From Smaragdicoccus niigatensis DSM 44881 = NBRC 103563 (GTDB taxonomy: Bacteria; Actinomycetota; Actinomycetes; Mycobacteriales; Mycobacteriaceae): 64,000 bases of DNA. The position numbers were made by a program, and so were the translations under genes. This document shows positions 21,737 through 40,306 of this stretch, piece by piece; the first letter of the stretch is position 1, and each line of letters begins with the position of its first letter. A model generated the notes under the pieces. That model searched no databases. It was not told where the DNA came from and saw only the letters and a program-made list of their open reading frames with translations. The stretch spans positions 124,001 through 188,000 of the forward strand of contig NZ_AQXZ01000019.1 in assembly GCF_000380645.1 (NCBI RefSeq), given 5' to 3'.

Positions 21737-21750
21737 CAGTCCTCACCTCA

Positions 21751-21780
21751 GGAGCCCGGCACATCGACGTGCCGGGCTCC
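21751..21780 (+). terminator. Terminator of repeat-protein gene A
   Basis: A 12-base perfect stem (GGAGCCCGGCAC and its complement) with loop ATCGAC, 14 bases past the stop. No T run follows. A nearly identical hairpin ends gene B, a trace of the A-B duplication. Confidence 0.75.
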
Positions 21781-21854
21781 TGCACTGTCCAGGCGTTGAC
21801 GTGTCATCCAAACGGCGTAACGGCACAGAGAACCGCTCTGAGCAGTTCGCAGCC

Positions 21855-21870
21855 GTTCTACTTTCAACCC
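21855..21870 (+). promoter_or_regulatory. Leaderless promoter half-site of gene B
   Basis: GTTCTACTTTCAAC at 21855-21868 is identical to the block before gene A, but here it ends two bases before the ATG. With TACTTT as -10, initiation falls on the ATG. The AAATGATC block is not found upstream. Confidence 0.5.
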
Positions 21871-22872: not shown

Positions 22873-22892
22873 TAAACACCTTCTCCGCGGGA

Positions 22893-22916
22893 GCCCGGCA
22901 CACCGATGTGCCGGGC
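22893..22916 (+). terminator. Terminator of gene B
   Basis: A 10-base perfect stem GCCCGGCACA/TGTGCCGGGC with a 4-base loop, 21 bases past the stop, followed by TTTCG. Near copy of the gene A hairpin. Confidence 0.75.
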
Positions 22917-23031
22917 TTTCGCGCTGTCAGGCACCATCTCACTTCTCACTATGTGGAAATTGTGTTGCACTATATGGGATGAGTCCGCACGATGATCTCA
23001 GACACCAGGTCATCGATGTGATGAGGTCCGC

Positions 23032-24186: not shown

Positions 24187-24305
24187 AAACGCGGCAGTTC
24201 CGATATTCGACTGTCAGCCATTCGACCGTCATTCCAAAGGCGAGCCTATTTCCAGCTCGGAATAAGCCGTCGTTATAGGTCCGCAAAGCGGATCACATCG
24301 GCTGC

Positions 24306-24344
24306 AAATGATCGAGTCACCGAATTTCGGGTTCTAGTCTCAGC
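24306..24344 (+). promoter_or_regulatory. Shared promoter-like element of gene C
   Basis: AAATGATC at 24306-24313, 17 bases, GTTCTAGTCTCAGC at 24331-24344, with TAGTCT as the -10. Same architecture and spacing as before gene A. Confidence 0.55.
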
Positions 24345-24360
24345 CAATCCAACGACCCCA

Positions 24361-24675
24361 ATGGATTGGCTGAAATTCAGAAAGACGGATCCCACGATCA
24401 ATGCCCGCCGGGAATCTAGGATCGCCCAAACTCTCCTCGCAGCCGCAGCGATCACCATCGCCGCTCCAGCCTTTGCGAGCGCCGCACCGACAAAGAACTA
24501 CTGCACTTCCGTCAACGGCCGCACCAGTTCGAAGGGCACTGCACAGTGCAGCAGCATCCCCGGCGGGAACTGGGCCACTGCCCGCGGTGATGGCGCCAGG
24601 GCGTACGCGGGCGACGGACGTGGAAACCGCGCGACCGCAAACGGCGACGGTAGCGAGGCGATCGCAGGCGGCTGA
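24361..24675 (+). CDS. Short repeat protein C, frameshifted copy
   Basis: 104 residues if read from ATG 24361: signal region RRESRIAQTLLAAAAITIAAPAFASA, Cys cap NYCTSVNGRTSSKGTAQC, one or two repeats, then a stop. Comparison with D shows that the ancestral ATG (24401) is four bases short of D and out of frame with the signal peptide. The family C-terminal tail (DGCSAVAN) continues in that ATG's frame after 24675. So two compensating indels bracket the middle. The upstream ATG 24361 may rescue translation but has no good ribosome site. It may be a decaying gene or a minimal member. Confidence 0.5.
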   Translation: MDWLKFRKTDPTINARRESRIAQTLLAAAAITIAAPAFASAAPTKNYCTSVNGRTSSKGTAQCSSIPGGNWATARGDGARAYAGDGRGNRATANGDGSEAIAGG

Positions 24676-24760
24676 TGGCCTGTCTGCAACCACAGACGGT
24701 TGCAGTGCCGTCGCCAACCCAATGAACACGCCGGCGCCTGCCCGTAGCACGCAATTCTTG

Positions 24761-24799
24761 GAAGGGGCTGGCAACTCTGCCAGCCCCTTCTTTGTTTGT
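24761..24799 (+). terminator. Strong terminator after gene C
   Basis: A 13-base perfect stem GAAGGGGCTGGCA/TGCCAGCCCCTTC with a four-base loop, followed by TTTGTTTGT. The most canonical intrinsic terminator in the array. Confidence 0.9.
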
Positions 24800-25038
24800 C
24801 ATAAAACTTTCAATTAGCGCGCCATCCGAAGCGGAATGTCCACGCCCGAAGTAGCAGTCGACCTTCCGCGACATCGCTGAGTATTGTTGTACTGCAACAT
24901 CTTTCGTCTCCCGTTGCAAACCTTGAACGCTTCTGGCAACGGGGTTCATCTGACCGAATGTCGGTCAATGAATATAGGGGTTTAAATACACACGAAATCA
25001 CGCCGTTATGCGTCATCGATCTAAATGACATCAATCCG

Positions 25039-25078
25039 AAATGATCTTCATTGATGAATGAATCGTCCTAATCTCAAC
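25039..25078 (+). promoter_or_regulatory. Shared promoter-like element of gene D
   Basis: AAATGATC at 25039-25046, 18 bases, GTCCTAATCTCAAC at 25065-25078 with TAATCT as -10. The four bases just before the block (TCCG against ACCG in A) and the TT after it are nearly conserved with gene A. Confidence 0.6.
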
Positions 25079-25126
25079 CAGTTCCAGCGCCCGACTTGCC
25101 CGATTGAGCTTCAGAAGGACGATCCA

Positions 25127-26395
25127 ATGAACCCCCGCCGAGAATCACGAATCGCACAGTCGCTGCTCGCCGCAGCTGCCGCCATCACGACACTCAGCAT
25201 CGCCGCGCCGGCGATGGCTGGCGCGGTAACGCCCGCGAAGAACTACTGCAAGTCCGTCAACGGCCGCACGATGGCCAGGGGAACCGCCACATGCAGTAGC
25301 ACCAAGGGCGGAAACGTGGCCGTTGCCAACGGCGACGGCGCCAGTGCCGACGCCTCGAACGGTAAGGGAAATCGCGCAACAGCTACAGGAGCCGGCAGCT
25401 CGGCAGTTGCCACCAACGGCGACAAGAACACGGCGACCGCAGACAACGGTGGCGATGCGTACGCCGGCGATGGAAATGGGAACAAGGCCGACGCAAAGGG
25501 GCCTGACAGCCATGCCTACGCAGGCTTTGGCAGCAAGAACACCGCGAGTGCGGTCAATAGTGGACAGGCGTTCGCCGGAGGTGGCGACAACAACGTTGCC
25601 GACGCCGATTATGGGATGGCTTTCGCCGGCGACGCCTGGGGCGAGTGGATCAGTTCGAACAACACGGCGCACGCCAGCAACGGCGGAGTGGCGTTTGCGG
25701 GCAGCGGAAACGGCAACACCGCGACCGCTACCAACTACGCCGAGGCCTTCGCCACTATCGGGAACGGCAACAGTGCCACCGCGGACGGCTTCGAAAGCAT
25801 TGCGGGGGCCGGCGGTGGGACGGAGCCCGACGAGGTAGGCAACAACAACACCGCCAAGGCGACGAACGGCGGCCAAGCGGGCGCATTTGTCGGCAACGGT
25901 AACCAGGCAACCGCCGACGGCACCGGAAGCAGTGCGATGGCCGGCGAAGGCGACACCAACATCGCATCTGCGACGAACGGCGGCCAAGCGGGCGCGCTAG
26001 TCGGAAACGGGAACCAGGCGACTGCCGACGGCACTGGAAGCACGGCGGAAGCCGGCGAAGGCAATAGCAACACCGCGTCAGCCAAGAACGGCAGTGAGGC
26101 ACGGGCCGGCGAAGGGGACAACAATTCCGCGACCGCGGACAACCTCAGCCAGGCAGGTGCCGGCGAGGGCAACTCCAACACGGCATCGGCGGACAACGGT
26201 AGTCAGGCAATGGCCGGTGAGGGCGACGGCAACAGCGCCTCTGCCGACACCGGCAGCCTCGCCCTCGCGGGCCAAGGCGACAACAACACCGCAACCGCAG
26301 TCAATGGTGGCCTTGCCGGCGCGGGCGGCGGTCTCGACGGTCAGACGGCATCCGCGGACGGATGTGGTCCGGCAGCGAACACCACCTGTCCGTAA
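25127..26395 (+). CDS. Secreted 18-residue-repeat protein D
   Basis: 422 residues from ATG 25127, with AAGGA eight bases upstream. The signal peptide ends near AMAGA, followed by the Cys cap NYCKSVNGRTMARGTATC and about 17 repeats with consensus N-T-A-S-A-x-N-G-x-x-A-x-A-G-x-G-x-G. Repeats in the second half are very regular and contain duplicated pairs (NGGQAGAxVGNGNQATADGTGS occurs twice). Tyr-rich inserts are few. It ends ADGCGPAANTTCP with two Cys. Predicted cell-surface or secreted beta-solenoid; function unknown. Confidence 0.8.
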   Translation: MNPRRESRIAQSLLAAAAAITTLSIAAPAMAGAVTPAKNYCKSVNGRTMARGTATCSSTKGGNVAVANGDGASADASNGKGNRATATGAGSSAVATNGDKNTATADNGGDAYAGDGNGNKADAKGPDSHAYAGFGSKNTASAVNSGQAFAGGGDNNVADADYGMAFAGDAWGEWISSNNTAHASNGGVAFAGSGNGNTATATNYAEAFATIGNGNSATADGFESIAGAGGGTEPDEVGNNNTAKATNGGQAGAFVGNGNQATADGTGSSAMAGEGDTNIASATNGGQAGALVGNGNQATADGTGSTAEAGEGNSNTASAKNGSEARAGEGDNNSATADNLSQAGAGEGNSNTASADNGSQAMAGEGDGNSASADTGSLALAGQGDNNTATAVNGGLAGAGGGLDGQTASADGCGPAANTTCP

Positions 26396-26407
26396 CCCTC
26401 CACGGAC

Positions 26408-26442
26408 AATCGGGGCGACGCACTGAGTGCGTCGCCCCGATT
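26408..26442 (+). terminator. Terminator of gene D
   Basis: A 16-base perfect stem starting AATCGGGGCGACGCAC with loop TGA, 12 bases past the stop, followed by CGTTTGG. Confidence 0.85.
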
Positions 26443-26599
26443 CGTTTGGGTTGGTACAGCCGAGCGCCGCGCCGTCATTCAATCGTCTGTCAACCGAATC
26501 GCGTCGCTGCCAATGCCGCGATCGGCGGCATCAGGTTCTTCCATCCACACCCCGATTTGTCCGGATTCGCGTCACGTGGCTGTCGTCGAACGGCGATGA

Positions 26600-26875
26600 T
26601 CTAGGTTATGGCTGTGAACCCACGTGGTGCACCGGCTTCGACGACAACGACAACCGTGCGAGTGTCTCGCGAGCCGGTGGCTATGCAGACGGCGGCAGAA
26701 GCGGCGGCGGGGCGATAACAATGGCGCTGTCACCGTCGGCGATAACCGCACCGCCTACGCCGGAACCACGACCGGCAACAACATCGGCGACGGTACGAGC
26801 AACAACGTAGCCGTCGCTGACTCCGATAACGGCACCGCCGTCGCAGCCGGCGGTAACGCGACCGGCGCGTGCTGA
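26600..26875 (+). pseudogene. Frameshifted relic of the repeat-protein family
   Basis: Family-like sequence in two frames. One frame reads FDDNDNRASVSRAGGYADGGRSGGG; from about 26705 the next frame continues GDNNGAVTVGDNRTAYAGTTTGNNIGDGTSNNVAVAD and ends TAVAAGGNATGAC with the usual terminal Cys and stop. No signal peptide or proper start is found. Upstream, 26474-26496 matches 20 of 23 bases far upstream of gene A (19946-19968), so it was once a full copy. The stop is followed within four bases by the ribosome site of gene E. Confidence 0.65.
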
Positions 26876-26889
26876 CCCAAGGAGCATTA

Positions 26890-27525
26890 GTGAACAAACT
26901 CAGGACATCTCTCGCCACCGCCGGTGTAGCGGGAGTGTTCGCCATTCTTGCCCCTACAACTGCGAGCGCTGCACCCAACTCGCTCTACTCCAGCCAACCC
27001 GGATGCATCTCGGTGAACGGCTCGACCTACACACGCGGAAACGCGGCATGCGAATCGACCCCCGGCGGCAACGTCGCCATCGCGCGAGGCGACGGTGCGA
27101 CAGCCACAGCCAACGATGGGGTGGGAAACCGGGCGTTCGCCACCGGAGCCGGGTCGAGCGCCTACGCGGGTGCCGGAACCGGCAACGTCGCAGTCGCGAC
27201 CAACGGCAGCTCGGCCGGGGCGTATGCCGGTGATTACAACCGAGCGGTCGCAAACGACAACTCCGAGGCCAACGCCAGCTTCGGCACCCGGAACACTGCG
27301 CTCAGCAGTGACGGCAGTCTTGCCGTGGCAAGCGGCGGGCGCCAGAATTATGCAACTGCCCGCGATGGCAGTACCGCGTTCGCGGAGGTCGGCAACCACA
27401 ACACCGCCATTGCGACGAACGGCAGCACGGCAACCGCGGCGTACGGCCATAACAACACCGCGACCGCATCCTCCACTTGCACGGTGTCCGTAATCTACGT
27501 CGACAACACCACCCAAAGGTGCTGA
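26890..27525 (+). CDS. Secreted repeat protein E
   Basis: 211 residues from GTG 26890, with AAGGAG five bases upstream. Signal peptide NKLRTSLATAGVAGVFAILAPTTASA, Cys cap PGCISVNGSTYTRGNAAC then ESTPGGNVAIARGDGA, and about eight shorter repeats (NRAFATGAGSSAYAGAGTG and relatives). It ends STCTVSVIYVDNTTQRC, a terminus with two Cys like A and B. Most divergent full-length copy. It appears to lack its own copy of the shared promoter and may depend on transcription through the relic upstream. Confidence 0.75.
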   Translation: MNKLRTSLATAGVAGVFAILAPTTASAAPNSLYSSQPGCISVNGSTYTRGNAACESTPGGNVAIARGDGATATANDGVGNRAFATGAGSSAYAGAGTGNVAVATNGSSAGAYAGDYNRAVANDNSEANASFGTRNTALSSDGSLAVASGGRQNYATARDGSTAFAEVGNHNTAIATNGSTATAAYGHNNTATASSTCTVSVIYVDNTTQRC

Positions 27526-27607: not shown

Positions 27608-28615
27608 TTAGAGCAGCGACGCGATCCGGTCGCCGACCTCATGGGTCTTCGCCGGACCGGTGCGGTTCGCAAGATCCTCCGCCACAGCCTTCTCGACTCG
27701 TGCCGCAGCCTCTTTCTCACCGACGTGGTCGAGGAGCATCGAGACCGACAGGATTGCCGCGGTCGGGTCGGCCTTGGCCTGGCCCGCGATGTCCGGAGCA
27801 CTTCCATGAACGGGTTCGAACATCGACGGGTTGGTGCGCGTGGCATCGATGTTGCCCGACGCCGCGAGCCCGATGCCGCCGGTGACGGCCGCCGCGAGGT
27901 CGGTGATGATGTCGCCGAACAGGTTGTCGGTGACGATCACGTCGAAGCGACCCGGGTCAGTGACGAGGTGAATCGTCGCCGCGTCGATGTGCTGGTAGGC
28001 AACATCGACCTCGGGATAGCCCTTCTTGATGTCGTCGACCGTGCGCTGCCACAGCGAACCGGCGAAGGTCAGCACGTTCGTCTTGTGCAGCAGCGTCAAG
28101 TGCTTGCGGCGCGTAACCGCCTTCTCGAACGCAAAGCGCACGATCCGCTCGACGCCGAACCGGGTGTTCACGCTGACCTCGGTCGCGACCTCCTGCGGCG
28201 TCCCGACCCGAAGCGCACCGCCGTTGCCGATGTACGGACCCTCAGTGCCTTCACGGACGACCACGATGTCGATCGGCGGGTTACCCGCGATCGGGCTCGT
28301 GACGCCCGGGTACAGACGCGACGGACGGAGGTTCACGTGGTGGTCGAGCGCGAAGCGGGCCTTCAGGAGGAGGCCGCGCTCCAGGATTCCGCTCGGCACC
28401 GACGGGTCACCGATCGCTCCGAGGAGGATCGCGTCCTGGCCACGCAGTTCTTCGAGAACGCTGTCGGGAAGCAACTCCCCCGTGCGGTGGTACAGCCGGG
28501 CTCCGAGGTCGTACTCGGTCGTCTCGACGTTCGGAACAACCGCGCGAAGAACCTTCAGTGCCTCGGTGATGACCTCGGGGCCGATGCCGTCACCAGCGAT
28601 AACGCCGAGCCTCAT
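27608..28615 (-). CDS. leuB: 3-isopropylmalate dehydrogenase
   Basis: 335 residues, NAD-dependent oxidative decarboxylation of 3-isopropylmalate in leucine synthesis. N-terminus [23 protein letters not shown], metal site [16 protein letters not shown], and the C-terminal signature [24 protein letters not shown]. The short type typical of Mycobacteriales. ATG overlaps the serA stop by four bases (ATGA), so leuB is translated with serA. Confidence 0.96.
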
Positions 28616-30198
28616 GCGAGGTTGACGACCGCGAGGAGGCTGGCGTCAACTGCCGCGGCGATCTTCTCGCGCACGTCAGCCGGCACATCCTTGTCGACGC
28701 GGAGCAGGATCGTCGCGAGAGGGCCCTCGGCGTCCTGCGACAGCGCGGCCGCGAGGATGTTGATGCCGGCGTCGCCCAGCGCGGTGCCCAGCTTGCCGAG
28801 CGCACCCGGCCGGTCGCCGTAGTGAACGAGAACGTTCAGACCCTCGGCGCGAAGGTCGAAGTTGCGCCCGTTGATGTTGACGATCTTCTCGACCTGCTGC
28901 GGACCGGTCAGGGTGCCGGCAACGTTTGTGGAGGAACCGTCGGCGTAAACGGCGCGGACGTCGACAACGCTGCGGTGGTTCGGGCTCTCCGACGCCTTGG
29001 TGAGGGTCGCGACGAGGCCGCGCTCCTCGGCGAGAGCCGGGGCGTTGACGAAGGTGACCGAGTCCTCGATGACCGCCGAGAACAGGCCGCGAACGGCCGA
29101 CAGCTTGAGGATCTCGACGTCCTCCGAGGCGAGCTCACCCCGGACGTCGACCGTGAGGCTGACCGGAAGCTCCGTAGACAGCGCGCCAAGCAGGACACCC
29201 GACTTGCGAACGACCTCGAGCCACGGAGCAACTTCGTCGCCGACCGAACCGCCGGCAACGTTGACTGCACCCGGAACGAACTCGCCGGCGAGGCAGAGAA
29301 GAACCGACTTGGCAACGTCCGTACCAGCGCGGTCCTGCGCCTCCGACGTCGAAGCACCGAGGTGCGGGGTCACAACGACCTGCGGCAGCTCGAACAGCGG
29401 GCTGTCGGTGCACGGCTCGGTGTTGAACACGTCGAGGCCGGCCGCGCGGACGTGGCCCGACTTGATGGCGTCAGCGAGCGCCTGCTCGTCGACCAGACCA
29501 CCACGCGCCGCGTTGACGATGACAACGCCCGGCTTGGTCTTGGCGAGGTTCTCCTTGCCAATGAGGCCCTTGGTCTCCGGGGTCTTCGGAAGGTGGACCG
29601 AGATGAGGTCAGCACGCTGCAGCAGTTCGTCGAGCGAAACGAGCTCGATGCCGAGCTGAGCGGCGCGAGCGGCCGACACATAGGGGTCGTACGCGATGAT
29701 CTTGGTCTCGAACGCGGCGAGGCGAGCCGCAAACAGCTGACCGATGCGGCCGAGGCCCACGACACCGACCGTCTTGTCGAAGATCTCGACACCGTTGAAC
29801 TTGCTGCGCAGCCACTTGCCCTCGCGCAGGCTCGCGTCGGCCTGCGGGATCTGGCGGGCGGCCGACAGCATGAGGGTGACGGCGTGCTCGGCAGCGGTGT
29901 GGATGTTCGAGGTCGGGGCGTTGACGACCATGACTCCGCGCGCGGTCGCGGCCGGCACGTCGACGTTGTCGAGGCCGACACCAGCACGGGCGACGATCTT
30001 CAGCTTCGTGCCCGCAGCGAGGACGTCGGCGTCGACAGTCGTGGCCGAGCGAACGAGCAGAGCGTCAGCCTCCGGCACGGCGGCCAGGAGTGCGGGGCGG
30101 TCAGGTCCGTCAACCCAGCGGACCTCGACACCGTCACCGAGGGCGTCAACAGTGGACTGGGCAAGCTTGTCGGCAATCAGAACTACCGGACGAGTCAC
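28612..30198 (-). CDS. serA: D-3-phosphoglycerate dehydrogenase
   Basis: 528 residues, the long actinobacterial form with substrate, NAD, intervening (ASB) and ACT domains. The NAD loop is [17 protein letters not shown], and the active-site His region is [18 protein letters not shown]. The ACT domain near the C-terminus ([21 protein letters not shown]) would bind serine for feedback inhibition. GTG 30198 has AGGAG five bases upstream. First step of serine synthesis; first gene of serA-leuB. Confidence 0.96.
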
Positions 30199-30311: not shown

Positions 30312-30638
30312 TCACAGCACCGGGCCGATCGCGAACTTCGCACCCGGGGTGCGACCCCGGCCCCAACCGAGCTTCTCGCGATAGCTTCCGATCAGCCCGT
30401 TCTCGACGAGATGCGCCTCGTCTCGCAGCGGCGAATCGGCCGGCAGCGGCTGCCGTTCGACCGCCACGAAAAGCGCATCTACCGGGCAATATGCCTCGCA
30501 CATGAAGCACGTTTGGCAGTCGTGCTGCCGGGCGATGACCGGGATGCCGTCCGCGCCCCGATCGAACACCCGCGTCGGGCAGACATCGACGCATTTATCG
30601 CACTCGATGCAGCGCTCCGACGAAACGACCTCGATCAT
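30312..30638 (-). CDS. Two-cluster ferredoxin-type subunit (AprB-like)
   Basis: 108 residues with two [4Fe-4S] motifs, CIECDKCVDVCP at residues 10-21 and CQTCFMCEAYCP about 25 residues later. The remaining 55 residues form a tail that could contact a partner. Start ATG 30638 overlaps the flavoprotein stop by four bases, so the two are made together and probably form an electron-transfer complex. The pairing resembles adenylylsulfate reductase AprAB in layout, though the reaction need not be the same. Confidence 0.82.
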   Translation of the reverse strand: MIEVVSSERCIECDKCVDVCPTRVFDRGADGIPVIARQHDCQTCFMCEAYCPVDALFVAVERQPLPADSPLRDEAHLVENGLIGSYREKLGWGRGRTPGAKFAIGPVL

Positions 30639-32221
30639 GCGGACACCGCCGACTGACTGCGCAGAAATTGTGCCTCCGGCATCGACCACAATTCGTCGAG
30701 ACCACCGGCGATGAGCCGATGCGCCTGGCGCGGGTCTTGCTCGGGAAAGTCCGCCCGCTTGTGCATGCCACGAGTCTCGGTCCGCGTCAGCGCGGCATTG
30801 AACATCCACCGGGCGTGCGCGACCATCGCCGCGGCCTCGCGCGACCGGTAGGTGTCGCCCGCGAGTCCGGAAACGACGCGTCGCCATGCAAGGTTGACCG
30901 AAACCAGAGCCGGCTCCAGCCGGTCCTGTGTCCGGAACAGGTTGGTCTCGTAGGGAATCACCTGGTTCTGCACTTCTCGACGAGCCTCGTCAGCGGTGAT
31001 GTCGCCGCCGCGCCCGAGCGGCCGAAGTCCCGCCTGGCCCGCTGGACGAACGACCCGACTGGCGGCCCGCGCACCCACACTCAGTGCATATCGCGCTGCG
31101 CCGGCACCCGCCCAACTTCCCGACGAAATGGCCCACGCCGAGTTATGGCTTCCGCCGCCGGTGAACCCACCGCAGATGAGCTCCCGGGTTGCGACGTCAC
31201 CGGCGACGTAGAGGCCCGGCACATCTGTCGAGAGGTCCTCGCCGGCGACCCGAACTCCCCCGGTGCCACGCACGGTGCCTTCGAGCAGCATCGTGACCGG
31301 GAAAGGGTCAACGAAGGGATTGATGCCTTGGCGATCGAACGCGAGGAAGAAGTTGGGCTGTCCCGTGCGCATATCGGCCTGCATCTGGGCATCGGCCTTG
31401 TCGATGACGCAGAAGACCGGTTCCGTCAGTAGCGTCCGGGCGATGACCGAGCGGCCGCGCGTACTGCCGGCACCTTCGATTACCGATCCGTCCGCGCGGT
31501 AGAACGTCCCGAAGCTGTAGTAGGCGGTCTTCGTGATCGACGTGAACTTCGGTGCGATCGCATAGGCGTTGGAGAACTCCATTCCGGAGAACACCGCGCC
31601 GACCTCAGCTGCCATCAAAGCCCCGTCGCCGGTGTTGACGTTGCAGCCAAGCGTGCCGGACTGAAACGCGCAGCCGCCGCTCGCAAGGACGACCGCACCT
31701 GCCTTGACCTGGTAGTTCTCGCCCGTCGTCAGGTCGGTTCCGGCTGCCCCCGCGACTGCTCCGGTGCCGTCGGTGAGCAATTCGAGCACGGGACTGTGGT
31801 CGAGAATCCGAACACCCGCACGCTTGACACGTGCCCGCTGCCGACGCATGTACTCCGGACCCTGGACACCTCGACGGATCGGAGTGCCGTCACTGCTCGC
31901 GGGGAACGGGTACTTCCCCACTTCGGCGAGCTCGTTGATACGCGCATACGTCTCGTCGAGCACGCGATCCATCCACTCGTGATCGGCAAGATAGCCGCCG
32001 AGCGCCTCCCGGCTTGCCTTCGCTTTCGCACGAAGTTCGGGCTCCGGCTGGACATACCAAACCCCGGTTCCGGCGGCCGCGGTCGCGCCGCTCGTACCGC
32101 AATATCCCTTGTCCGCGAGGACAACGGAGGCTCCGGTTGCGGCGGCCTTGAGCGCGGCCCAGGTTCCGGCGGGACCACCTCCGACAACGAGAACGTCAGC
32201 GTGCAATTCATAAGTGGACAT
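30635..32221 (-). CDS. FAD-dependent oxidoreductase, fumarate reductase/AprA-like
   Basis: 528 residues from ATG 32221, with AGGAG four bases upstream. The FAD dinucleotide fold is DVLVVGGGPAGTWAALKAA, and the second FAD motif near residue 370 is GLYVAGDVATRELICGGFTGGGSHNSAW, the signature of the SdhA/FrdA/AprA flavoprotein superfamily. The C-terminal helical domain carries NAALTRTETRGMHKRADFPEQDP, also a family mark. The cluster context (sulfonate-type monooxygenase and ABC importer) suggests sulfur-compound redox chemistry; substrate not known. Confidence 0.82.
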   Translation of the reverse strand: MSTYELHADVLVVGGGPAGTWAALKAAATGASVVLADKGYCGTSGATAAAGTGVWYVQPEPELRAKAKASREALGGYLADHEWMDRVLDETYARINELAEVGKYPFPASSDGTPIRRGVQGPEYMRRQRARVKRAGVRILDHSPVLELLTDGTGAVAGAAGTDLTTGENYQVKAGAVVLASGGCAFQSGTLGCNVNTGDGALMAAEVGAVFSGMEFSNAYAIAPKFTSITKTAYYSFGTFYRADGSVIEGAGSTRGRSVIARTLLTEPVFCVIDKADAQMQADMRTGQPNFFLAFDRQGINPFVDPFPVTMLLEGTVRGTGGVRVAGEDLSTDVPGLYVAGDVATRELICGGFTGGGSHNSAWAISSGSWAGAGAARYALSVGARAASRVVRPAGQAGLRPLGRGGDITADEARREVQNQVIPYETNLFRTQDRLEPALVSVNLAWRRVVSGLAGDTYRSREAAAMVAHARWMFNAALTRTETRGMHKRADFPEQDPRQAHRLIAGGLDELWSMPEAQFLRSQSAVSA

Positions 32222-33494
32222 GGATCTCCTTACGGGAGGGAGTGAACTTCGGGAGATAGCGAGCAAAGACGCCGGCGCCGACCGCAGATGCCGCAGCCAG
32301 CGAGGAAAAGGCCGCCGACAGCGGAAACACGACAGCCAACCCGCTGACGACGAGCGGACCGGCGAACCATCCGACGTCGTGCATGAGACGCCAGGCCGCA
32401 AGGTATTCGGCACGCGCATGAGGAGGTGCAGTATCGGCGCCGATCGTCATGATGATTCCGTTGCCGAAACCGTTCCCGAGTCCGAAGACGAGGGCGACCG
32501 CGATCAATGTTGGCGCACTGTGTGCGAATGCGATGAGCACGTATCCCGCACCCAGGGTCGCCACCGATGGCACCGCCACGAACGCCCGACCGAACCGATC
32601 CATGAGGTACCCGGCCGGGTAACCGCACGACATGTCGATCGCGGCCGCGGCTGCGTAGGCGAGGCTCGCAACCGCCGCGCTCAGTCCGATGTGTTCGGCC
32701 CAGAGCGGCAGGACCACGGGAACGGCAGCGCGCGCGGCGCCGAGCAGCACGGAGCCGCTGCCCAGCGTGACGAGCACCGACGAGTTCGCCGCTATGACTC
32801 CGGCTAACGGCACGTGCTGGTCACTGCCCGTGAGGCCATCCGGGTCCGGCTGACGAGCCAGGAGCAATCCCGCGAGGAGGACGCCGACGGCCTGGATGAC
32901 GAAACCACCGCGGATTCCGATCAAGGCGATGAGCCCGGCGCCCGCGACGGGCCCGACGAACATGCCGATCCGGAAGGTGAGCCCGAACGTCGACATGACG
33001 CGCGCGCGATGGCTCAGCGGAACGACGGCCGAGAGGTAACTCTGCCGCGCCAGACCCCACACCGCGTTCGAGACGCCGGTGATCAGGACGCCGACACCGA
33101 GCACCTCGACACTCGGCGCAAAGATGCACAGCACCACGCCGACGACGGCCGTGAAACTGGCCAGCACCAGCGCTTTTCGCTCCCCCAGCCGAGCCACGAG
33201 CACCCCGGACGGCAGGTCGCCGAGCACCATCCCGAGACCTGCGAGCGATGCGACGAGCGCGGCAATCCACACCGGCGCGCCCAGCTCCCGGGCGGCGAGC
33301 GCGACGACCGGAGCCGCCGCGCCCATCCCGATTCCGAACAACGTCGCCGGCACGAAAACCGGCCAGAAGAGTTCGGCGAGATACCGCCGCTCTGCCGATG
33401 GGTGGACCGTCGGGCCTTCCGCTCCTCGCTCGTCCCTCGCTGCGATGCTCAGGTCCTCCTCCTTCCACCCCGGCTCTACTGTGCAGCTGGCCAT
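32208..33494 (-). CDS. MFS transporter of the organosulfur-type cassette
   Basis: About 428 residues with 12 predicted membrane segments. Motifs are LPSGVLVARLGERKALVLA and a second-half PAGYLMDRFGRAFVAV. It overlaps the flavoprotein start by 14 bases and the monooxygenase stop by 19 bases, so all four leftward genes form one operon. ATG 33494 is the only ordinary start available. A strong AAGGAGGAGG lies about 33 bases inside it but is followed by no standard start codon. Probably exports a product or intermediate; substrate unknown. Confidence 0.78.
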   Translation of the reverse strand: MASCTVEPGWKEEDLSIAARDERGAEGPTVHPSAERRYLAELFWPVFVPATLFGIGMGAAAPVVALAARELGAPVWIAALVASLAGLGMVLGDLPSGVLVARLGERKALVLASFTAVVGVVLCIFAPSVEVLGVGVLITGVSNAVWGLARQSYLSAVVPLSHRARVMSTFGLTFRIGMFVGPVAGAGLIALIGIRGGFVIQAVGVLLAGLLLARQPDPDGLTGSDQHVPLAGVIAANSSVLVTLGSGSVLLGAARAAVPVVLPLWAEHIGLSAAVASLAYAAAAAIDMSCGYPAGYLMDRFGRAFVAVPSVATLGAGYVLIAFAHSAPTLIAVALVFGLGNGFGNGIIMTIGADTAPPHARAEYLAAWRLMHDVGWFAGPLVVSGLAVVFPLSAAFSSLAAASAVGAGVFARYLPKFTPSRKEIHVHL

Positions 33495-34798
33495 GCCGCC
33501 GCGGCATCGACCTCGGGCAGTCCGTAGTGCTCGCGCAGCGTTCGGCCTGTGTATTCCGTGCGGAACAGGCCGCGCTTGCGCAGGATCGGCACGACGTGGT
33601 CGACGAAGTCCTCGAGCCCACCGGGCAGGTACGGCGGCATGATGTTGAACCCGTCGGCAGCGCCCTGCTCGTACCAAAGCTGCAGTTCATCGGCGATTTG
33701 CTCAGGCGTACCCGCGAAGGTGCGATGGCCACGTCCACCGCCGAGCCGCGCGATGAGCTGACGAACGGTGAGCTGCTCACGCTCGGCCAGATCCTTCACG
33801 AGCTGGTACCGGCTCTTGTTGCCCTGGATCTCGTTCTCGGGCGGAAGCGGCGGGAGCGGCGCGTCGAGCGCATGCTCGGTGAGATCGACGCCGACCATCG
33901 TCGACAACTGTCGCAGCGCGTAGTCCGGCGAGATCAACGCCGTGAACGACTCCTCGAGTTCGCGGGCTTCGGCTTCCGTCGACCCGATGAACGGCACGAT
34001 TCCGGGCAGCACTTTGAGGTCGTGTCGGCTGCGGCCGAACTTCGGCAGCCGGCACTTGAGGTCGGTGTAGAACTCCTTGCCCTCCTCGAGCGCGCGCTGC
34101 GCGGTGAAGACGGCTTCGGCATATTGAGCGGCGAACTCCTTACCGGTTTCCGAGGAACCCGCCTGTACGAGCAGCGGCCGTCCCTGCGGTGAGCGCGGCG
34201 TGTTAAGCGGACCCTTCACGCGGAAACGCTCGCCGACGTGGTCGATCGGGTGCACCTTCGCCGGGTCGGCGAAGCGGCCCTCCGCGGCGTCGAGCACGAT
34301 CGACCCGGGCTGCCAACTGTCCCACAATTTCAGCGCGACCTGCAGAAACTCGTCCGCACGCTCGTACCGGCGCTGATGCTCGGGGATGCCCTCCAGGCCG
34401 AAGTTCGCGGCTTCGTCCGCTCCGGCCGACGTCACGATGTTCCAGCCCGCGCGACCGCCACTGATGTGATCGAGCGAGGCAAACGCGCGCGCCAGGGTGA
34501 AGGGCTCGTTGTAGCTCGTCGACGCGGTCGCGATCAGCCCCACGTGTTCGGTCGCCGTCGCGATCGCCGTCAGCAGGGTGATCGGCTCGAAGACTGCCAG
34601 GGTGTTGCGCTCGATCCGCGGACCCGCGGCCAGACCGTCGGCGAAGAACACCGAGTCGAGGGTGCCGCGCTCGGCGATCCGGCCGAGGTTCTGAAAGTGC
34701 TCGACGTCGAGAACCGCGCGCTCGTTCGTGCGCGGGTGACGCCAGGCGGCTTCGTGATGGCCGACGCCCATCAGAAATGCGTTCAAGTGGAGGGACAT
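33476..34798 (-). CDS. NtaA/SnaA/DszA-family flavin monooxygenase
   Basis: 440 residues, bacterial luciferase-like TIM barrel. The N-terminus MSLHLNAFLMGVGHHEAAWRHP is diagnostic of the NtaA/SnaA/DszA/SoxA branch, which uses FMNH2 made by a separate reductase to cleave C-S or C-N bonds. Further marks are DHISGGRAGWNIVTSAGADEAANFG and PQGRPLLVQAGSSETGKEFAAQYAEAVF. First gene of the leftward operon, divergent from an ABC importer of the sulfonate type. Desulfonation or cleavage of an organosulfur compound is the best guess. Confidence 0.85.
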   Translation of the reverse strand: MSLHLNAFLMGVGHHEAAWRHPRTNERAVLDVEHFQNLGRIAERGTLDSVFFADGLAAGPRIERNTLAVFEPITLLTAIATATEHVGLIATASTSYNEPFTLARAFASLDHISGGRAGWNIVTSAGADEAANFGLEGIPEHQRRYERADEFLQVALKLWDSWQPGSIVLDAAEGRFADPAKVHPIDHVGERFRVKGPLNTPRSPQGRPLLVQAGSSETGKEFAAQYAEAVFTAQRALEEGKEFYTDLKCRLPKFGRSRHDLKVLPGIVPFIGSTEAEARELEESFTALISPDYALRQLSTMVGVDLTEHALDAPLPPLPPENEIQGNKSRYQLVKDLAEREQLTVRQLIARLGGGRGHRTFAGTPEQIADELQLWYEQGAADGFNIMPPYLPGGLEDFVDHVVPILRKRGLFRTEYTGRTLREHYGLPEVDAAAAWPAAQ

Positions 34799-35063
34799 CT
34801 TTCTTATCTGTGTCGGCGGTGTCGCACGTGACAACAGTTGCGATCACGGTGGCGCAAATGTCCGAGTTTCGATCACGGTGAGGGAAAGGCTCGTGCCGGC
34901 CCGTGAGCCTGAGCCAGCATGTCCCCCATGACTTTCATGCCCTCGACCTGTTGTCGGTAGAGCAGCCCTCGTCATTCCTCGCGCCTTTGTTGCGCACCCC
35001 TTTTGCGCCGTGCGTGCTCGATCGAGCACTTGTTTGGCGTGCCATTCATCAAGGAGAACTACG
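34799..35063. promoter_or_regulatory. Divergent control region of the organosulfur-type cassette
   Basis: 265 bases between divergent operons. An 11-base direct repeat CGATCACGGTG lies at 34841-34851 and 34870-34880, with starts 29 bases apart (about three helical turns), a likely activator or repressor site. A hairpin AGGCTC/GAGCCT spans 34887-34910. No known riboswitch is recognised. Confidence 0.5.
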
Positions 35064-36161
35064 TTGTCGATCCGTACCCAATTCCGATTTCGGCGGAAAC
35101 CAGCCGTGCGCGTGGTGGCTCTTGCCGTCGCCGCGGCGACGGTCCTGACCGCCTGCGGGTCGAGCGAATCGAGCGAATCCGGTCCCGACGCGTCGGGCGT
35201 GACCACGCTGCGCTACCAGGGCTGGAACAACCAGGTGACCCTTCCCGAACTCGCCGACTACCTCGGCTTCTTCGACGGCAAGATCAAGCTCAACTGGGTC
35301 GGAAACACCATCAGCGGACCGCAGGACATCCAGTCCGCGGCCACCGGCGAGACCGACTTCGGCGGAGCTTTCGGCGGCGCGGTCGCGAAGCTGGTCTCCT
35401 CCGGAGCCGACATCAAGGCCGTCATCAACTACTACGGCGGTGACGACAAGGACTTCGGCGCCTACTACGTTCCGGCCGACAGCCCGATCAAGTCCGCGCG
35501 CGACCTCATCGGCAAGAAGGTAGCCGTGAACACGCTCGGAGGTCAGAACGAGGCCGACATCTTCAACGAACTGAAGAAGGAGGGCCTGACCCAGGAGGAG
35601 ATCAAGCAGGTCGAACTCGTGACTCTGCCGCCGCCGAACCAGGAAGACGCGCTGCGCAAGGGTCAGGTCGACGCCGCCGGCCTCTCCGGCCAGTTCAAGC
35701 AGCGTGCGGACGCGGCCGGTGGTCTCCGGGTTCTGTGGGACCAGCATTCGGAGTACGGCGGCCCGTTCAACGGTGGTCCGTACGTCTTCCGCAATGACTT
35801 CATCAAGAAGAACCCCGATGCTGTGCGCGCATTCGTCGACGGCGTCGGCAAGGCGATCCAGTGGGCTCGGCTGACCCCGCGCGACGAGGTCATCAAGACC
35901 TTCACCACGATCATCGAGGCACGTCACCGGCCGAACGAGAACACTGACACCCTCAAGTACTGGCTCACGCCTGGCGTCCCGTCGTACTACGGCTACATCG
36001 AATACTCGGACTTCGAGCGCTGGGCAGACTGGCTCAAGGCCACCGGTGCGGTGAAGGAGTTGCCGTCGGCGAACGAGTTGTTCACCAACGAGTTCAACAC
36101 CAACGCCACGACGGCGGTCCAGCCGGCAGACGCTCAGGCACCGCAAGCGGCGAAGAAGTAG
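35064..36161 (+). CDS. ABC transporter substrate-binding lipoprotein (TauA/SsuA-like)
   Basis: 365 residues from TTG 35064, with AAGGAG seven bases upstream; no ATG fits as well. Signal peptide RVVALAVAAATVLTAC is a lipobox. The mature domain is of the nitrate/sulfonate/taurine type (NMT1-like): LRYQGWNNQVTLPELADYLGFF, TDFGGAFGGAVAKLVSSGADIKAVI, and SARDLIGKKVAVNTLGGQNEADIF. First gene of a three-gene importer operon. Confidence 0.88.
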   Translation: MSIRTQFRFRRKPAVRVVALAVAAATVLTACGSSESSESGPDASGVTTLRYQGWNNQVTLPELADYLGFFDGKIKLNWVGNTISGPQDIQSAATGETDFGGAFGGAVAKLVSSGADIKAVINYYGGDDKDFGAYYVPADSPIKSARDLIGKKVAVNTLGGQNEADIFNELKKEGLTQEEIKQVELVTLPPPNQEDALRKGQVDAAGLSGQFKQRADAAGGLRVLWDQHSEYGGPFNGGPYVFRNDFIKKNPDAVRAFVDGVGKAIQWARLTPRDEVIKTFTTIIEARHRPNENTDTLKYWLTPGVPSYYGYIEYSDFERWADWLKATGAVKELPSANELFTNEFNTNATTAVQPADAQAPQAAKK

Positions 36162-36163
36162 TC

Positions 36164-37204
36164 ATGGCTTCCCACACCGGAATTCAGCTTCGGGACGTCA
36201 CCAAGACGTTCCCGGCGCGCAACGGCGGGCCGGACTTCACCGCGCTCGACAATATCTCGCTGGACATCGCTCAGGGTGAGTTTCTCACCCTGGTCGGTCC
36301 CAGCGGGTGCGGCAAGTCCACCCTGCTCGATCTCGTCGCGGGCCTCACCACTCCGACCTCGGGGCAGATCCTGCTCGGTGACCAGCCGGTCACCGGCCCG
36401 GGCCTCGATCGCGGAGTCGTGTTCCAGCAATACGCACTGTTTCCCTGGCGGACTGCGCAGGCAAACGTCGAGTTCGGGCTCGAAGTGAAGGGCGTGCCCC
36501 GCAAGCAGCGGGCCGAGCGGGCGCGGGAAGTGCTGGCACAGGTCGGACTCTTGGCCTTCGCGAAGCATTACCCGCACGAACTGTCCGGCGGGATGCGGCA
36601 GCGCGTGGCGATCGCGCGCAGCCTCGCCTACGAACCGGAAGTTCTGTTGATGGACGAGCCGTACGCAGCCCTCGATGCGCAGACTCGGGAGGCGCTGCAA
36701 GGCGACCTGCTTGAGATCTGGAAACGCACCGGTACGACGATCCTGTTCATCACGCACGGCATCGACGAGTCGGTGTTCCTCGGCCAGCGGGTGGCGGTCA
36801 TGACGTCGCGACCAGGGCGGATCAAAGAAATCGTCCAGATCGATCTCGGGGATCGAGCCGTCGAAGATCTGCGCTCGACCCCCGACTTCATCGCCTATCG
36901 ACGTCAGATCTGGGGTCTGCTCCACGACGAGGTCCGCAAGACCTTCGAAGCACAGGAGGTGGTTGGCGTTGGTTATCGCAACTCTCGACAAGCCGGTTTC
37001 CGTCGTCGCTCGCGCGGTGCCGGCCGTCCGCAGGCCTCGTCGGGTGCTTCCACTGGTGAGCACGATTGCCAAACGAGTGGTCGCTGTGGCGACCTTCCTC
37101 TCGATCTGGGAAGTCGCGCCGAGGCTCGGCTGGGTCGACCGGGCGTTTCTCAGCCCGTTGAGCGAGGTGCTCTCAGCGCTGTGGCAACTGACGCTGTCGG
37201 GTGA
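36164..37204 (+). CDS. ABC transporter ATP-binding protein (TauB/SsuB-like) with overlong tail
   Basis: 346 residues as read. Walker A GPSGCGKST, Q-loop QQYALFPW, signature LSGGMRQR, Walker B VLLMDEPYAALD and H-loop THGIDES are all intact. The domain should end near residue 266 (KTFEAQEV), but no stop is met and the frame runs on about 80 residues through the permease start, giving a Gly/Arg/Ser-rich tail with no resemblance to the family. This 242-base overlap suggests stop loss in the organism or a sequence error. Two bases separate it from the upstream gene. Confidence 0.85.
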   Translation: MASHTGIQLRDVTKTFPARNGGPDFTALDNISLDIAQGEFLTLVGPSGCGKSTLLDLVAGLTTPTSGQILLGDQPVTGPGLDRGVVFQQYALFPWRTAQANVEFGLEVKGVPRKQRAERAREVLAQVGLLAFAKHYPHELSGGMRQRVAIARSLAYEPEVLLMDEPYAALDAQTREALQGDLLEIWKRTGTTILFITHGIDESVFLGQRVAVMTSRPGRIKEIVQIDLGDRAVEDLRSTPDFIAYRRQIWGLLHDEVRKTFEAQEVVGVGYRNSRQAGFRRRSRGAGRPQASSGASTGEHDCQTSGRCGDLPLDLGSRAEARLGRPGVSQPVERGALSAVATDAVG

Positions 37205-37805
37205 CCTGTGGATCAGCATCGACGCGAGCCTGCACCGATCGTTGACCGGACTGCTCGTGGCGGTCTCGATCGCAGTGCCGCTGGGCCTGCTGATCGCGTG
37301 GTATTCGGCTGTGGCCGAGGTGCTTTCGCCCCTCTTGGCAATCTTCCTGAACACGGCCGCGGTGGCACTGCTACCCGTGTTCACGCTGATCCTGGGAATC
37401 GGCGACCTGTCGAAGATCGCAATCATCGGCTACGCGTGCTTCTGGCCGATTCTGTACAACACGATCAGCGGCGCCCGCACAGTCGATCCGCTGTTGATCA
37501 AGTCGGCGCGATCGCTGGGTTTGAAGGACTTCAAGCTCTTCTACAAGGTCATCGTGCCGGCGGCCCTGCCGACGATCTTCACCGGTCTTCGGCTGGCGAC
37601 TGCAGCTTCGATGCTCGTGCTCATCACGACGGAGTACGTCGGTGCAAAGGCCGGCCTCGGCTACCTGATCATCTCGTCGCAGTTCAATTTCCAGATTCCG
37701 CAGATGTACGCCGGCATCCTGACCGTCTCGATCATCGGTCTGGGCCTGAACTACCTGCTCGTGTTCGTCGAATCGCGCGTCACGAAGTGGCGACCTAAGC
37801 AGTAG
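36963..37805 (+). CDS. ABC transporter permease (TauC/SsuC-like)
   Basis: 280 residues from TTG 36963, with AGGAGG four bases upstream. Six membrane segments of the BPD_transp_1 type. The EAA loop can be read as SARSLGLKDFKLFYKVIVPAALPTIFTGLRLA, and VLITTEYVGAKAGLGYLI is typical of sulfonate/nitrate permeases. Starts inside the ATPase reading frame. Forms the membrane channel of the importer. Confidence 0.88.
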   Translation: MALVIATLDKPVSVVARAVPAVRRPRRVLPLVSTIAKRVVAVATFLSIWEVAPRLGWVDRAFLSPLSEVLSALWQLTLSGDLWISIDASLHRSLTGLLVAVSIAVPLGLLIAWYSAVAEVLSPLLAIFLNTAAVALLPVFTLILGIGDLSKIAIIGYACFWPILYNTISGARTVDPLLIKSARSLGLKDFKLFYKVIVPAALPTIFTGLRLATAASMLVLITTEYVGAKAGLGYLIISSQFNFQIPQMYAGILTVSIIGLGLNYLLVFVESRVTKWRPKQ

Positions 37806-37822: not shown

Positions 37823-37864
37823 TGACAACCGAGGCAACTCCCATGTGGGGTTGCCTCGGCTGTC
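37823..37864. terminator. Bidirectional hairpin after the ABC operon
   Basis: Inverted repeat with outer GACA/TGTC and an 11-base stem CCGAGGCAACY-type (GAGGCAAC/GTTGCCTC at its core). It lies 18 bases past the permease stop and touches the stop of the convergent DUF559-like gene, the same arrangement as at 2661-2697. Confidence 0.7.
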
Positions 37865-38693
37865 AGACGACAACTTGAGCAGGCTTGAGGTGGTCACCTC
37901 GCCGGATCACCGCCAGAATGTCCTGCTCGGCATCCTTCCAGTTGTCCTCGATATCTTGCTTGGTCAACCGAATCACGTTGAATCCCAATGCTTTAAGCCG
38001 CCGATCACGCTCCCGGTCGGCGTGAAACTTCTCCCGGTGCGTGTCCTCCCCGTCGCACTCGATGATCAGCGACCGGCCGATCAACAGGTCGACACGACCG
38101 ATGTCGCCGACGACGACCTGAATCCGCACCGCGATATTTCGGCTGCGCAGTCGAAGCCTGGTCATCGTCTCCAGTCCTGACTCGCTGTCCCGCTCGCACT
38201 TCTCATCCAGGCGCAGGTGGGCATACTTCGAGTCACGGATCAAGGTCGTGGCATCGGCCATCTGAATCAGCCGCTTGTTGAGCGCCGAGTCAAGCGCAAC
38301 GACCACCTGCTCTGGGTCCAGGCAGTTCACCGCGCACGCCAGTGCCACGTCCAAGGTGTCGATCGACCCCTCTTCTCGCGGACGCCTCCGATACGGCTGG
38401 CAGTTCCGGCCCGTTGGCCTCAGTGCCCGCGCCGCGTAGCGAATATGCAGTTCAGTATCGGAAACCCACACGCCATGCAGGCGGAGAACCGATACACAGC
38501 TCACCACACCGCCGGCCTTGACCGCGCGGAGGACTCTCGCGTTCGCGTTCGGCGATGCGTACCAACCGCGCCGCGGACGGTCCCAGCCCAGCTTGCGAAT
38601 CTCGGCCTTGGGCATACCGCCGGCGATCAACTGCCTCGTCGAGACAACTCCGCCGTACCTCGCAATCAACCGCTCGACTTCCTCCACGTGCAA
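37863..38693 (-). CDS. AbiEi-like / DUF559-type protein, second copy
   Basis: 276 residues. The N-terminal winged-helix-like domain is VERLIARYGGVVSTRQLIAGGMPKAEIRKLG, and the C-terminal nuclease-fold region is VVVGDIGRVDLLIGRSLIIECDGEDTHREKFHADRERDRRLKALGFNVIRLT. This holds the D-x(n)-E-C-D-G pattern of DUF559. Only distantly similar to the gene at 2681-3565, yet both are leftward and both end in a convergent hairpin. Function unknown; the nuclease residues look intact. Confidence 0.72.
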   Translation of the reverse strand: MHVEEVERLIARYGGVVSTRQLIAGGMPKAEIRKLGWDRPRRGWYASPNANARVLRAVKAGGVVSCVSVLRLHGVWVSDTELHIRYAARALRPTGRNCQPYRRRPREEGSIDTLDVALACAVNCLDPEQVVVALDSALNKRLIQMADATTLIRDSKYAHLRLDEKCERDSESGLETMTRLRLRSRNIAVRIQVVVGDIGRVDLLIGRSLIIECDGEDTHREKFHADRERDRRLKALGFNVIRLTKQDIEDNWKDAEQDILAVIRRGDHLKPAQVVV

Positions 38694-38849
38694 TCAGACG
38701 CGAACGGCCCGCCCCCGGTTCCACCGATCGGTGGACACGCCTGTCACCCCACGGACCATCCGGTCGCCGGACAACGCGCTGACCTGCGAAAAGCGAAAGT
38801 TATGGCATCGCCGGAGAAGCCGGAAGAACATCCCAGACAGGACATGAAA

Positions 38850-39230
38850 ATGAACATCAACCGCCTCGCAATCGTCGGACTCGGAGTCGTCGGAGCCGCA
38901 ATGGCCGCTCCCCTGCTTGTCGCCGGAACCGCGTCCGCAGACACCGGAGCCGCCGGTGGCATGCAGGCCGGCTTCTGCGCCCCGCAGTACGGACCGATCA
39001 ACGGATTCACCGCCTCGTCGGCCGGCAACGACCACACCTCGTGCGCGTTCGCCGAGAACGTCCGGCTGGCCTTCGCAACCAGCGGACCGGCTCGCCAGGC
39101 GCGCTGGGTGCAGGCCTACAGCCCGGTCACCAAGCAGACCTACGACATGTGGTGCCAGCCGGACTACATGAGCGCGACCGTCACCTGCACCGGAGGCAAG
39201 GACGCCGTCGTCACGCTCTACCAGGGCTAG
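38850..39230 (+). CDS. Small secreted protein
   Basis: 126 residues from ATG 38850 (ATG 38844 is also possible; AGGA lies seven bases before 38850). A signal peptide with cleavage after TASA (about residue 30) is followed by a domain of about 95 residues. It has four Cys (GFCAPQYG, HTSCAFAENV, DMWCQPDY, VTCTGG), likely two disulfides. The sequence SAGNDHTSCAFAENVRLAF followed by TVTC is seen in other small actinobacterial exported proteins I cannot name. Function unknown. Confidence 0.72.
   Translation: MNINRLAIVGLGVVGAAMAAPLLVAGTASADTGAAGGMQAGFCAPQYGPINGFTASSAGNDHTSCAFAENVRLAFATSGPARQARWVQAYSPVTKQTYDMWCQPDYMSATVTCTGGKDAVVTLYQG

Positions 39231-39277: not shown

Positions 39278-40306
<1,029 letters not shown>

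Follow-up and report, generated by a model that had tools for sequence, protein, structure and literature searches.

A gene cassette at positions 30312-37805 of a 64,000-nucleotide stretch of the Smaragdicoccus niigatensis DSM 44881 genome (contig NZ_AQXZ01000019.1, positions 124,001 to 188,000; the whole stretch is called the window below) very probably serves the uptake and degradation of organic sulfur compounds, as judged from gene context and gene families. We put at roughly 0.55 the probability that it is an organosulfur-acquisition cassette in which an ATP-binding cassette (ABC) importer, a monooxygenase dependent on reduced flavin mononucleotide (FMNH2) and an alpha-beta enzyme carrying flavin adenine dinucleotide (FAD) and two [4Fe-4S] clusters act in sequence. 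The importer would take up a small sulfonate- or sulfone-like compound, which the monooxygenase would oxidise, drawing on a flavin reductase encoded elsewhere for its FMNH2; the alpha-beta enzyme, a flavoprotein-ferredoxin pair, would then transfer two more electrons to or from either the imported compound or the product of that oxidation, with its ferredoxin subunit as the route for the electrons. We infer the class of substrate, the order of the steps, the direction of electron flow, the role of a major facilitator superfamily (MFS) transporter in the same operon and the action of an intergenic palindrome as an operator.

Gene organization of the cassette

Open reading frame (ORF) positions and family matches, the latter far above chance level for all seven genes, bear out both the places and strands that the sequence-only reading had given these genes and their division into two divergent operons, a four-gene minus-strand set and a three-gene plus-strand importer. 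The minus strand encodes, in order of transcription, an FMN-dependent luciferase-like monooxygenase (LLM) of ~440 amino acids (aa) from the NtaA/DmoA family (33476..34798), an MFS transporter of 428 aa (32208..33494; MFS_1, 135.6 bits), a 528-aa FAD flavoprotein alpha subunit (30635..32221) of the succinate dehydrogenase (SDH)/fumarate reductase (FRD)/AprA superfamily with an FAD_binding_2 match of 71.5 bits and an AAGGAG ribosome site ahead of its ATG, and a 108-aa ferredoxin-type beta subunit (30312..30638) with a Fer4 match, two CxxCxxCxxxC motifs for two [4Fe-4S] clusters and a conserved C-terminal tail. Because their frames overlap by 19 bases (monooxygenase/MFS), 14 bases (MFS/flavoprotein) and 4 bases (flavoprotein/ferredoxin, ATGA), these four genes look like one coupled operon. 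Facing them on the plus strand are a lipoprotein substrate-binding protein (SBP) of the NMT1/SsuA type (35064..36161; LTAC lipobox, TTG start behind AAGGAG, NMT1 70.3 bits), an importer ATPase (36164..37204; ABC_tran) and an importer permease (36963..37805; BPD_transp_1), the start of which is uncertain between 36963 and 37077. Starts at 34798 for the monooxygenase, 32221 for the flavoprotein and 35064 for the SBP are likelier than those first assigned. Compared with its counterpart in a near relative (locus L023), the ATPase ORF is extended by 76 codons beyond the relative's stop codon and so overlaps the permease gene; it has likely lost its stop codon.

The monooxygenase scored 584.2 bits against TIGR03860 (cut-off 279.7) over profile positions 1-422 of 422, a full-length likeness to the NtaA/SnaA/DszA/DmoA monooxygenases, from whose systems the cassette differs in having no flavin reductase gene. 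Its individual matches were led by 7e36_B (353.5 bits) and YtnJ (351), ahead of nitrilotriacetate monooxygenase 3sdo (334) and DszA (333), so that of the earlier description as a DszA-type enzyme the family assignment holds and a particular closeness to DszA does not. The importer has all three expected parts, an NMT1-type SBP, a BPD permease and an ABC ATPase. In its NMT1-fold SBP, single permease and single ATPase the cassette resembles the TauABCD and SsuEADCB systems, and importers of its relatives adjoin TauD-type or two-component FMNH2 monooxygenase genes; it differs in adding the FAD/[4Fe-4S]2 pair and the MFS transporter, in lacking TauD and flavin reductase, and in an importer that falls under the curated Tau/Ssu cut-offs. 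The earlier label of Tau/Ssu importer is thus sound for the superfamily and fails for the Tau/Ssu models examined, all of which scored under cut-off.

Structure and diagnostic residues of the flavoprotein-ferredoxin pair

Since the signature residues of both the AprA and the SDH family are missing, the pair appears from its sequence to be built like a two-subunit redox enzyme of the SDH/adenosine 5'-phosphosulfate (APS) reductase (APR) type and to be a member of neither family. An AlphaFold2 model of the flavoprotein from 46 sequences (mean predicted local distance difference test, pLDDT, 77.7; predicted template modelling score, pTM, 0.83; mean pLDDT 33 for a single-sequence fold) was weak at residues 40-49, 185-187, 189-197, 316-319, 354-358, 401-403, 482-493 and 495-528, with pLDDT <50 at 316-319 and 354-358, within both motifs stressed below. 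Foldseek and VIA-align placed it in the SDH/FRD/aspartate-oxidase/APR fold, with VIA-align Z scores of 35.4 for FrdA (6b58_C), 34.1 for aspartate oxidase (1knp), 33.5 for the 3'-phosphoadenosine 5'-phosphosulfate (PAPS) reductase of Methanothermococcus thermolithotrophicus (8a8o_B) and 28.6 for AprA (2fja). A flavoprotein profile searched against the PDB ranked SDH/FRD flavoproteins first (9.7e-27), followed by the PAPS reductase alpha subunit, aligned along its entire length (8.8e-20), and then AprA (7.2e-11); a profile of the middle region gave chance-level PDB matches only, and among the best 25 NCBIfam models for the flavoprotein none came near its cut-off. With the ferredoxin profile, the beta subunit of PAPS reductase was matched at 1.1e-9, ranked after polyferredoxins and several others. 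Among alpha-beta relatives known from experiment, this PAPS reductase (PDB 8a8o) comes closest in build; an excerpt of PMC10322725 describes its alpha subunit as an FAD protein of the fumarate-reductase family and its beta subunit as carrying two [4Fe-4S] clusters.

Like PAPS reductase and the dissimilatory APS reductase AprAB, the pair joins an FAD alpha subunit to a small beta subunit that carries two [4Fe-4S] clusters, and its subunit sizes resemble those of PAPS reductase; it differs in lacking the histidine of GGH/GSH, the arginine of E-x-RF and the Trp of the beta subunit, in having a regular CxxCxxCxxxC first cluster and in forming a separate clade. These residues were compared with two AprA/AprB pairs and three PAPS-reductase-like (PAPSR-like) pairs from genomes of the phylum, and the family itself was represented by 93 alpha rows, among them the window and closely related strains, and by 85 beta rows. 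Where EPYxxG[GS]H stands in 5/5 AprA/PAPSR-like alpha proteins, the flavoprotein family has EGTVRGTGG, eight of whose nine positions are unchanged in 93/93 rows and the ninth, G315, in 92/93; the E-x-RF segment is replaced by MEFSNAY. On the beta side, CW[DE]C (5/5) is CQTC in the ferredoxin family, with Gln in 85/85 rows, and Q42, Y86, R87, G91 and W92 are all found in 85/85. The role of the Trp in the PAPS/APS reductase beta subunit is taken from section 9 of PMC10322725.

Fold is likewise what the flavoprotein shares with the SDH/FRD flavoprotein and L-aspartate oxidase (NadB), whose Z scores are near-tied with that of PAPS reductase. The differences from SDH/FRD are a 108-aa ferredoxin instead of SdhB and an operon with no membrane-anchor gene; beyond these, the substrate-site His of SDH/FRD/NadB is Glu314 in the flavoprotein family and the Arg is absent. 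The His of the SdhA/NadB rows from the same genome (3/3) aligns with Glu314 in 93/93 family rows, and the NRL Arg of SDH/NadB aligns with T354/G355, in a second motif, [TS]GGGxxNxxW, where position 354 is T in 89 rows and S in 4 and where G355-G357, N360 and W363 are unchanged in 93/93. We take the aligned AprA His and the SDH and NadB His/Arg to be catalytic residues. In a 19-row tree the flavoprotein family formed one clade (100/100) apart from AprA/PAPSR (100/100) and SDH/NadB (98/95); the unrelated row own_L012 was left out, long-branch warnings were raised, and several forks within the family were unsettled.

The earlier description of the pair as AprAB-like accordingly fits its architecture and not the sense of an APS reductase. 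A true APS reductase running in reverse, from sulfite and AMP to APS, would share the two-subunit plan and the PAPS reductase matches to both subunits, yet it is exceedingly improbable: the AprA/PAPSR His and the beta Trp, each present in 5/5 comparison proteins, are absent, PRK06854 (APS reductase alpha) scored 37.3 bits on the flavoprotein versus 557, and TIGR02061 (aprA) had no match in this genome at E 1e-60, with 3 of 14 first-look candidates scored. APS reductase identity, with conversion of sulfite to APS, was rejected on account of the missing His and Trp, and succinate/fumarate chemistry on account of the missing SDH His/Arg. As a separate observation, three genomes of the phylum (L127, L128 and L129) encode AprA-like proteins under the aprA cut-off together with a beta protein of 104-110 aa and a sulfite-reductase-like ORF nearby (157.8 bits versus a cut-off of 324.1 in L127), a set that resembles that of the methanogen PAPS reductase.

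Recurrence of the pair in homologous loci

The nearly fixed unit among homologous loci is flavoprotein plus ferredoxin, most often with an importer. We examined the best 80 of at least 581 flavoprotein relatives in named genomes, which span Actinomycetota, Cyanobacteria (Nostoc, Anabaena and others), Paenibacillus and a few more; two of the loci, L015 and L023, are probably from the same organism. Genes were predicted by a codon-based caller rather than taken from annotation, clusters were labelled by a Pfam/NCBIfam scan of one representative each, and neighbours were counted within 6 kb of the flavoprotein. The ferredoxin, counted under a slightly different distance rule, was the immediate neighbour in 74 of the 80 loci; 52 had an SBP-plus-ABC importer, 35 had a monooxygenase belonging to the window enzyme's cluster and 28 had a TauD-type dioxygenase. 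Importer and monooxygenase occurred together in 30/80 loci, so that the combination, for which the sequence-only reading knew no pathway name, is hardly a rarity, although the literature gave no name for it either: none for the flavoprotein-ferredoxin pair was found in titles and abstract openings of open-licence PMC papers, and excerpts of desulfurisation or per- and polyfluoroalkyl substance (PFAS) papers (PMC8557817, PMC7661421, PMC3868597, PMC11852219, PMC9861168) hold nothing on the pair. No cluster plainly tied to nitrogen compounds turned up among the relatives, in a survey that included no systematic test for one.

The association was strongest within the pair's own gene run, defined as genes on the flavoprotein's strand separated by gaps of <200 bases. 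The 292 non-pair genes inside such runs included 54 SBP, 51 ATPase (some ABC-2 ATPases fall into this cluster), 49 permease, 26 monooxygenase and 14 TauD-type genes, compared with 9, 12, 9, 11 and 16, respectively, among the 856 genes outside them; TauD-type genes, 14 inside and 16 outside, are thus bound to the pair less tightly. A scan of 67 of the 98 other operon genes (the 31 omitted were mostly cluster repeats, two being serA and leuB of L023) found LLM (6), MFS (7), nitroreductase (4), Rrf2 (2), sulfatase (1) and PALP (1) genes, along with members of families not obviously connected with sulfur, among them FecCD (2), an aldo/keto reductase and a thiamine pyrophosphate enzyme. Among SBP cluster representatives, SBPc (L084) exceeded the SsuA-family cut-off (227.8 versus 163.5) and SBPb fell under it (109.9). 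Eleven of the 80 loci (L024, L038, L041, L044, L051, L060, L061, L068, L069, L073 and L083) carry two flavoprotein copies close together, often with an SBP gene between them.

These counts bear on whether the monooxygenase relies on the pair for the electrons that reduce its FMN. A family scan found no flavin reductase among the seven genes, as had been claimed, and the pair overlaps, and is probably co-transcribed with, the monooxygenase operon, both of which speak for such a role. The claim does not extend to the genome, where three Flavin_Reduct genes lie elsewhere; an importer accompanies the pair with neither LLM nor TauD in 20 of the 80 loci, TauD occurs without LLM in 7, and the flavoprotein is built like a substrate-oxidising subunit of the SDH family, all of which makes FMN reduction a very doubtful function for the pair.

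Plasmid-borne copies

A search of 72,556 plasmid records returned 59 with the flavoprotein at E 1e-40, 38 of them from Rhizobium, Bradyrhizobium, Azospirillum, Sinorhizobium, Shinella and Ensifer; in the best 30 of the 59 the flavoproteins were 55-67% identical. Seven regions were hand-picked from these 30, of which six carry annotation. The pair was present in 6/6, labelled no more specifically than 'FAD-binding protein' and ferredoxin or 4Fe-4S protein, and an ABC importer stood in its gene run in 5/6 (Azospirillum, Paracoccus, Pseudonocardia, Paenibacillus and Shinella). The Pseudonocardia plasmid carries ROK-TauD-SBP-ATP-PERM-LLM-MFS-FAD-Fd in a single run, that is, the window's gene set plus ROK and TauD, and the Paracoccus and Shinella plasmids carry a minimal unit, FAD-Fd-SBP-PERM-PERM-ATP. 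Genes of sulfur metabolism lie close by: a Cys_Met_Meta_PP enzyme adjoins the pair in Azospirillum (391 bits) and is ~1.2 kb away in Rhizobium (407 bits), and cysD is ~6 kb downstream in Paracoccus. The Azospirillum cluster also has an annotated amidohydrolase downstream and an amino-acid importer on the other strand.

The two plasmid units and the 20 importer-only loci suggest that the pair may work without an oxygenase. The pair may represent a class of soluble organosulfur oxidoreductase not described before, which needs only an ABC importer to form a minimal uptake-conversion unit and acts directly on the imported sulfur compound, with an active site (EGTVRGTGG, [TS]GGGxxNxxW) unlike those of APS reductase and SDH and a spread among Actinomycetota, Cyanobacteria, Bacillota and Pseudomonadota that is partly plasmid-borne; we hold this wider proposal tentatively, at less than an even chance. 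The family is separate within the SDH/FRD/APR superfamily and has apparently spread horizontally.

A second cassette in the genome

Contig C12 of the same genome carries a second cassette (L096, 6543-14298) with TauD, an importer, a monooxygenase 56% identical to that of the window, an ABC-2 exporter pair and ROK, and with no flavoprotein pair; the flavoprotein is single in this genome, the next match scoring 42.8 bits. Because the pair comes directly after a comparable gene set in L022, L027 and L094, one pair may serve both cassettes, which would favour a shared intermediate. TauD/SsuD-type chemistry yields sulfite, and in the strongest rival to our reading the pair handles the sulfite that TauD or the monooxygenase releases, for instance by reducing or detoxifying it, through chemistry other than that of AprAB and as a final step common to several cassettes. 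One pair for two cassettes fits that role, as do the sulfur-assimilation pyridoxal phosphate (PLP) enzymes that two plasmids carry near the pair. We consider it unlikely, since the pair is held closer to importers than to oxygenases and the genome already has NIR_SIR-type reductases (three ORFs over cut-off, a count in which sulfite and nitrite enzymes are not told apart).

Strength of the organosulfur assignment

Several observations weigh against an organosulfur cassette acting as proposed. What ties it to sulfur is neighbourhood and family membership, and NMT1-type binding proteins and LLM enzymes also serve non-sulfur substrates. The window SBP scored 84.8 against SsuA_fam (cut-off 163.5) and 37 against the taurine SBP model (304), and the other importer parts were also below cut-off (TauB, 262.6 versus 357; TauC, 120.5 versus 342); the representative of the TauD-type cluster belongs to PF02668 and reached 276.5 bits of the 313 set by the taurine dioxygenase model. 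In 18 of the 80 loci a full importer and the oxygenases are all missing within 6 kb, leaving an SBP alone in 5, an ABC gene alone in 2 and neither in 11; some of these loci lie near contig ends, and others, e.g. in Nocardia gamkensis and Antrihabitans, have full flanks. The pair's independence of an oxygenase is also not demonstrable, because 15 of 16 genomes examined (of the 20 with importer-only loci) have SsuD-like genes elsewhere, above the curated cut-off in 2. Finally, sugar-acid genes border the Shinella unit, and a phosphonate-binding-type protein is next door to the pair in Rhizobium.

Together with the Azospirillum amidohydrolase, these flanks and the low SBP scores are what would be expected if the substrate were not an organosulfur compound but an amine, a phosphonate or an aromatic acid, with the sulfur genes as bystanders. 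That explanation is quite improbable in view of the 28 loci with TauD-type genes, the L084 SBP above the SsuA-family cut-off, the closest PDB match of the window SBP, which is an SsuA protein, and the Cys/Met PLP enzymes and cysD near plasmid-borne pairs. We keep the organosulfur reading because of the plasmid gene sets, the Cys_Met_Meta_PP enzymes near the pair and cysD in Paracoccus. The organosulfur theme of the sequence-only reading is likewise supported by gene context, in that TauD-type dioxygenases, SsuA-type SBPs and enzymes of Cys/Met metabolism recur in homologous clusters.

Intergenic palindrome and flanking genes

The 265-base spacer between the two operons contains a perfect 16-bp palindrome, GTGCTCGATCGAGCAC (35014..35029), a candidate operator and the sole exact copy in the 5.32-Mb genome. 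L023 retains it, yet this conservation weighs little because the entire aligned spacer is ~93% identical, and in 22 relatives besides L023 the palindrome was absent upstream of the SBPa genes (at most 1 mismatch between arms). Sites with two mismatches numbered 12 in the genome, versus 2 for a reversed-pattern control, and this excess of near matches could possibly mark a wider regulon.

The cassette lies between leuB-serA (27608-30198) and ilvC (39278-40291), all assigned by NCBIfam equivalogs above cut-off; serA and ilvC are the neighbours that the sequence-only reading had given. That it was inserted there is another matter, given the even composition (GC content 0.61-0.68 across the cassette, with little variation) and the identical gene order in L023, whose flavoprotein is 95% identical and which also has serA and leuB beyond the ferredoxin; an inserted island as a demonstrated fact was dropped for these reasons. 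What may point to insertion is the patchy distribution of the flavoprotein, found at E 1e-80 in 65 of 251 genomes of the host's family and in 4 of 396 drawn across the phylum, the latter probably an undercount with three first-look candidates scored per genome. Two small ORFs separate the permease from ilvC, one on the minus strand (37863-38693) with weak MTES_1575/DUF559 endonuclease-like matches and one on the plus strand (38802-39230). Upstream of leuB-serA, 20114-27525 encodes a row of proteins that by eye look secreted, repeat-rich and apparently paralogous, with a common start containing a cysteine and an NGR motif. The start of ORF 15187-16320 resembles, also by eye, a phage-type integrase; NCBIfam gave no match for it at E 1e-30.

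Significance

Most soil sulfur is organic, and the known aerobic assimilation routes depend on oxygenases such as TauD, SsuD and SfnG. That a flavoprotein is nearly always found beside its ferredoxin, and in most cases near a sulfonate-type importer, across four phyla or more points to an unassigned step in organosulfur use. If the pair does act on the imported compound, it would represent new chemistry for the degradation of sulfonates, sulfones and related pollutants.

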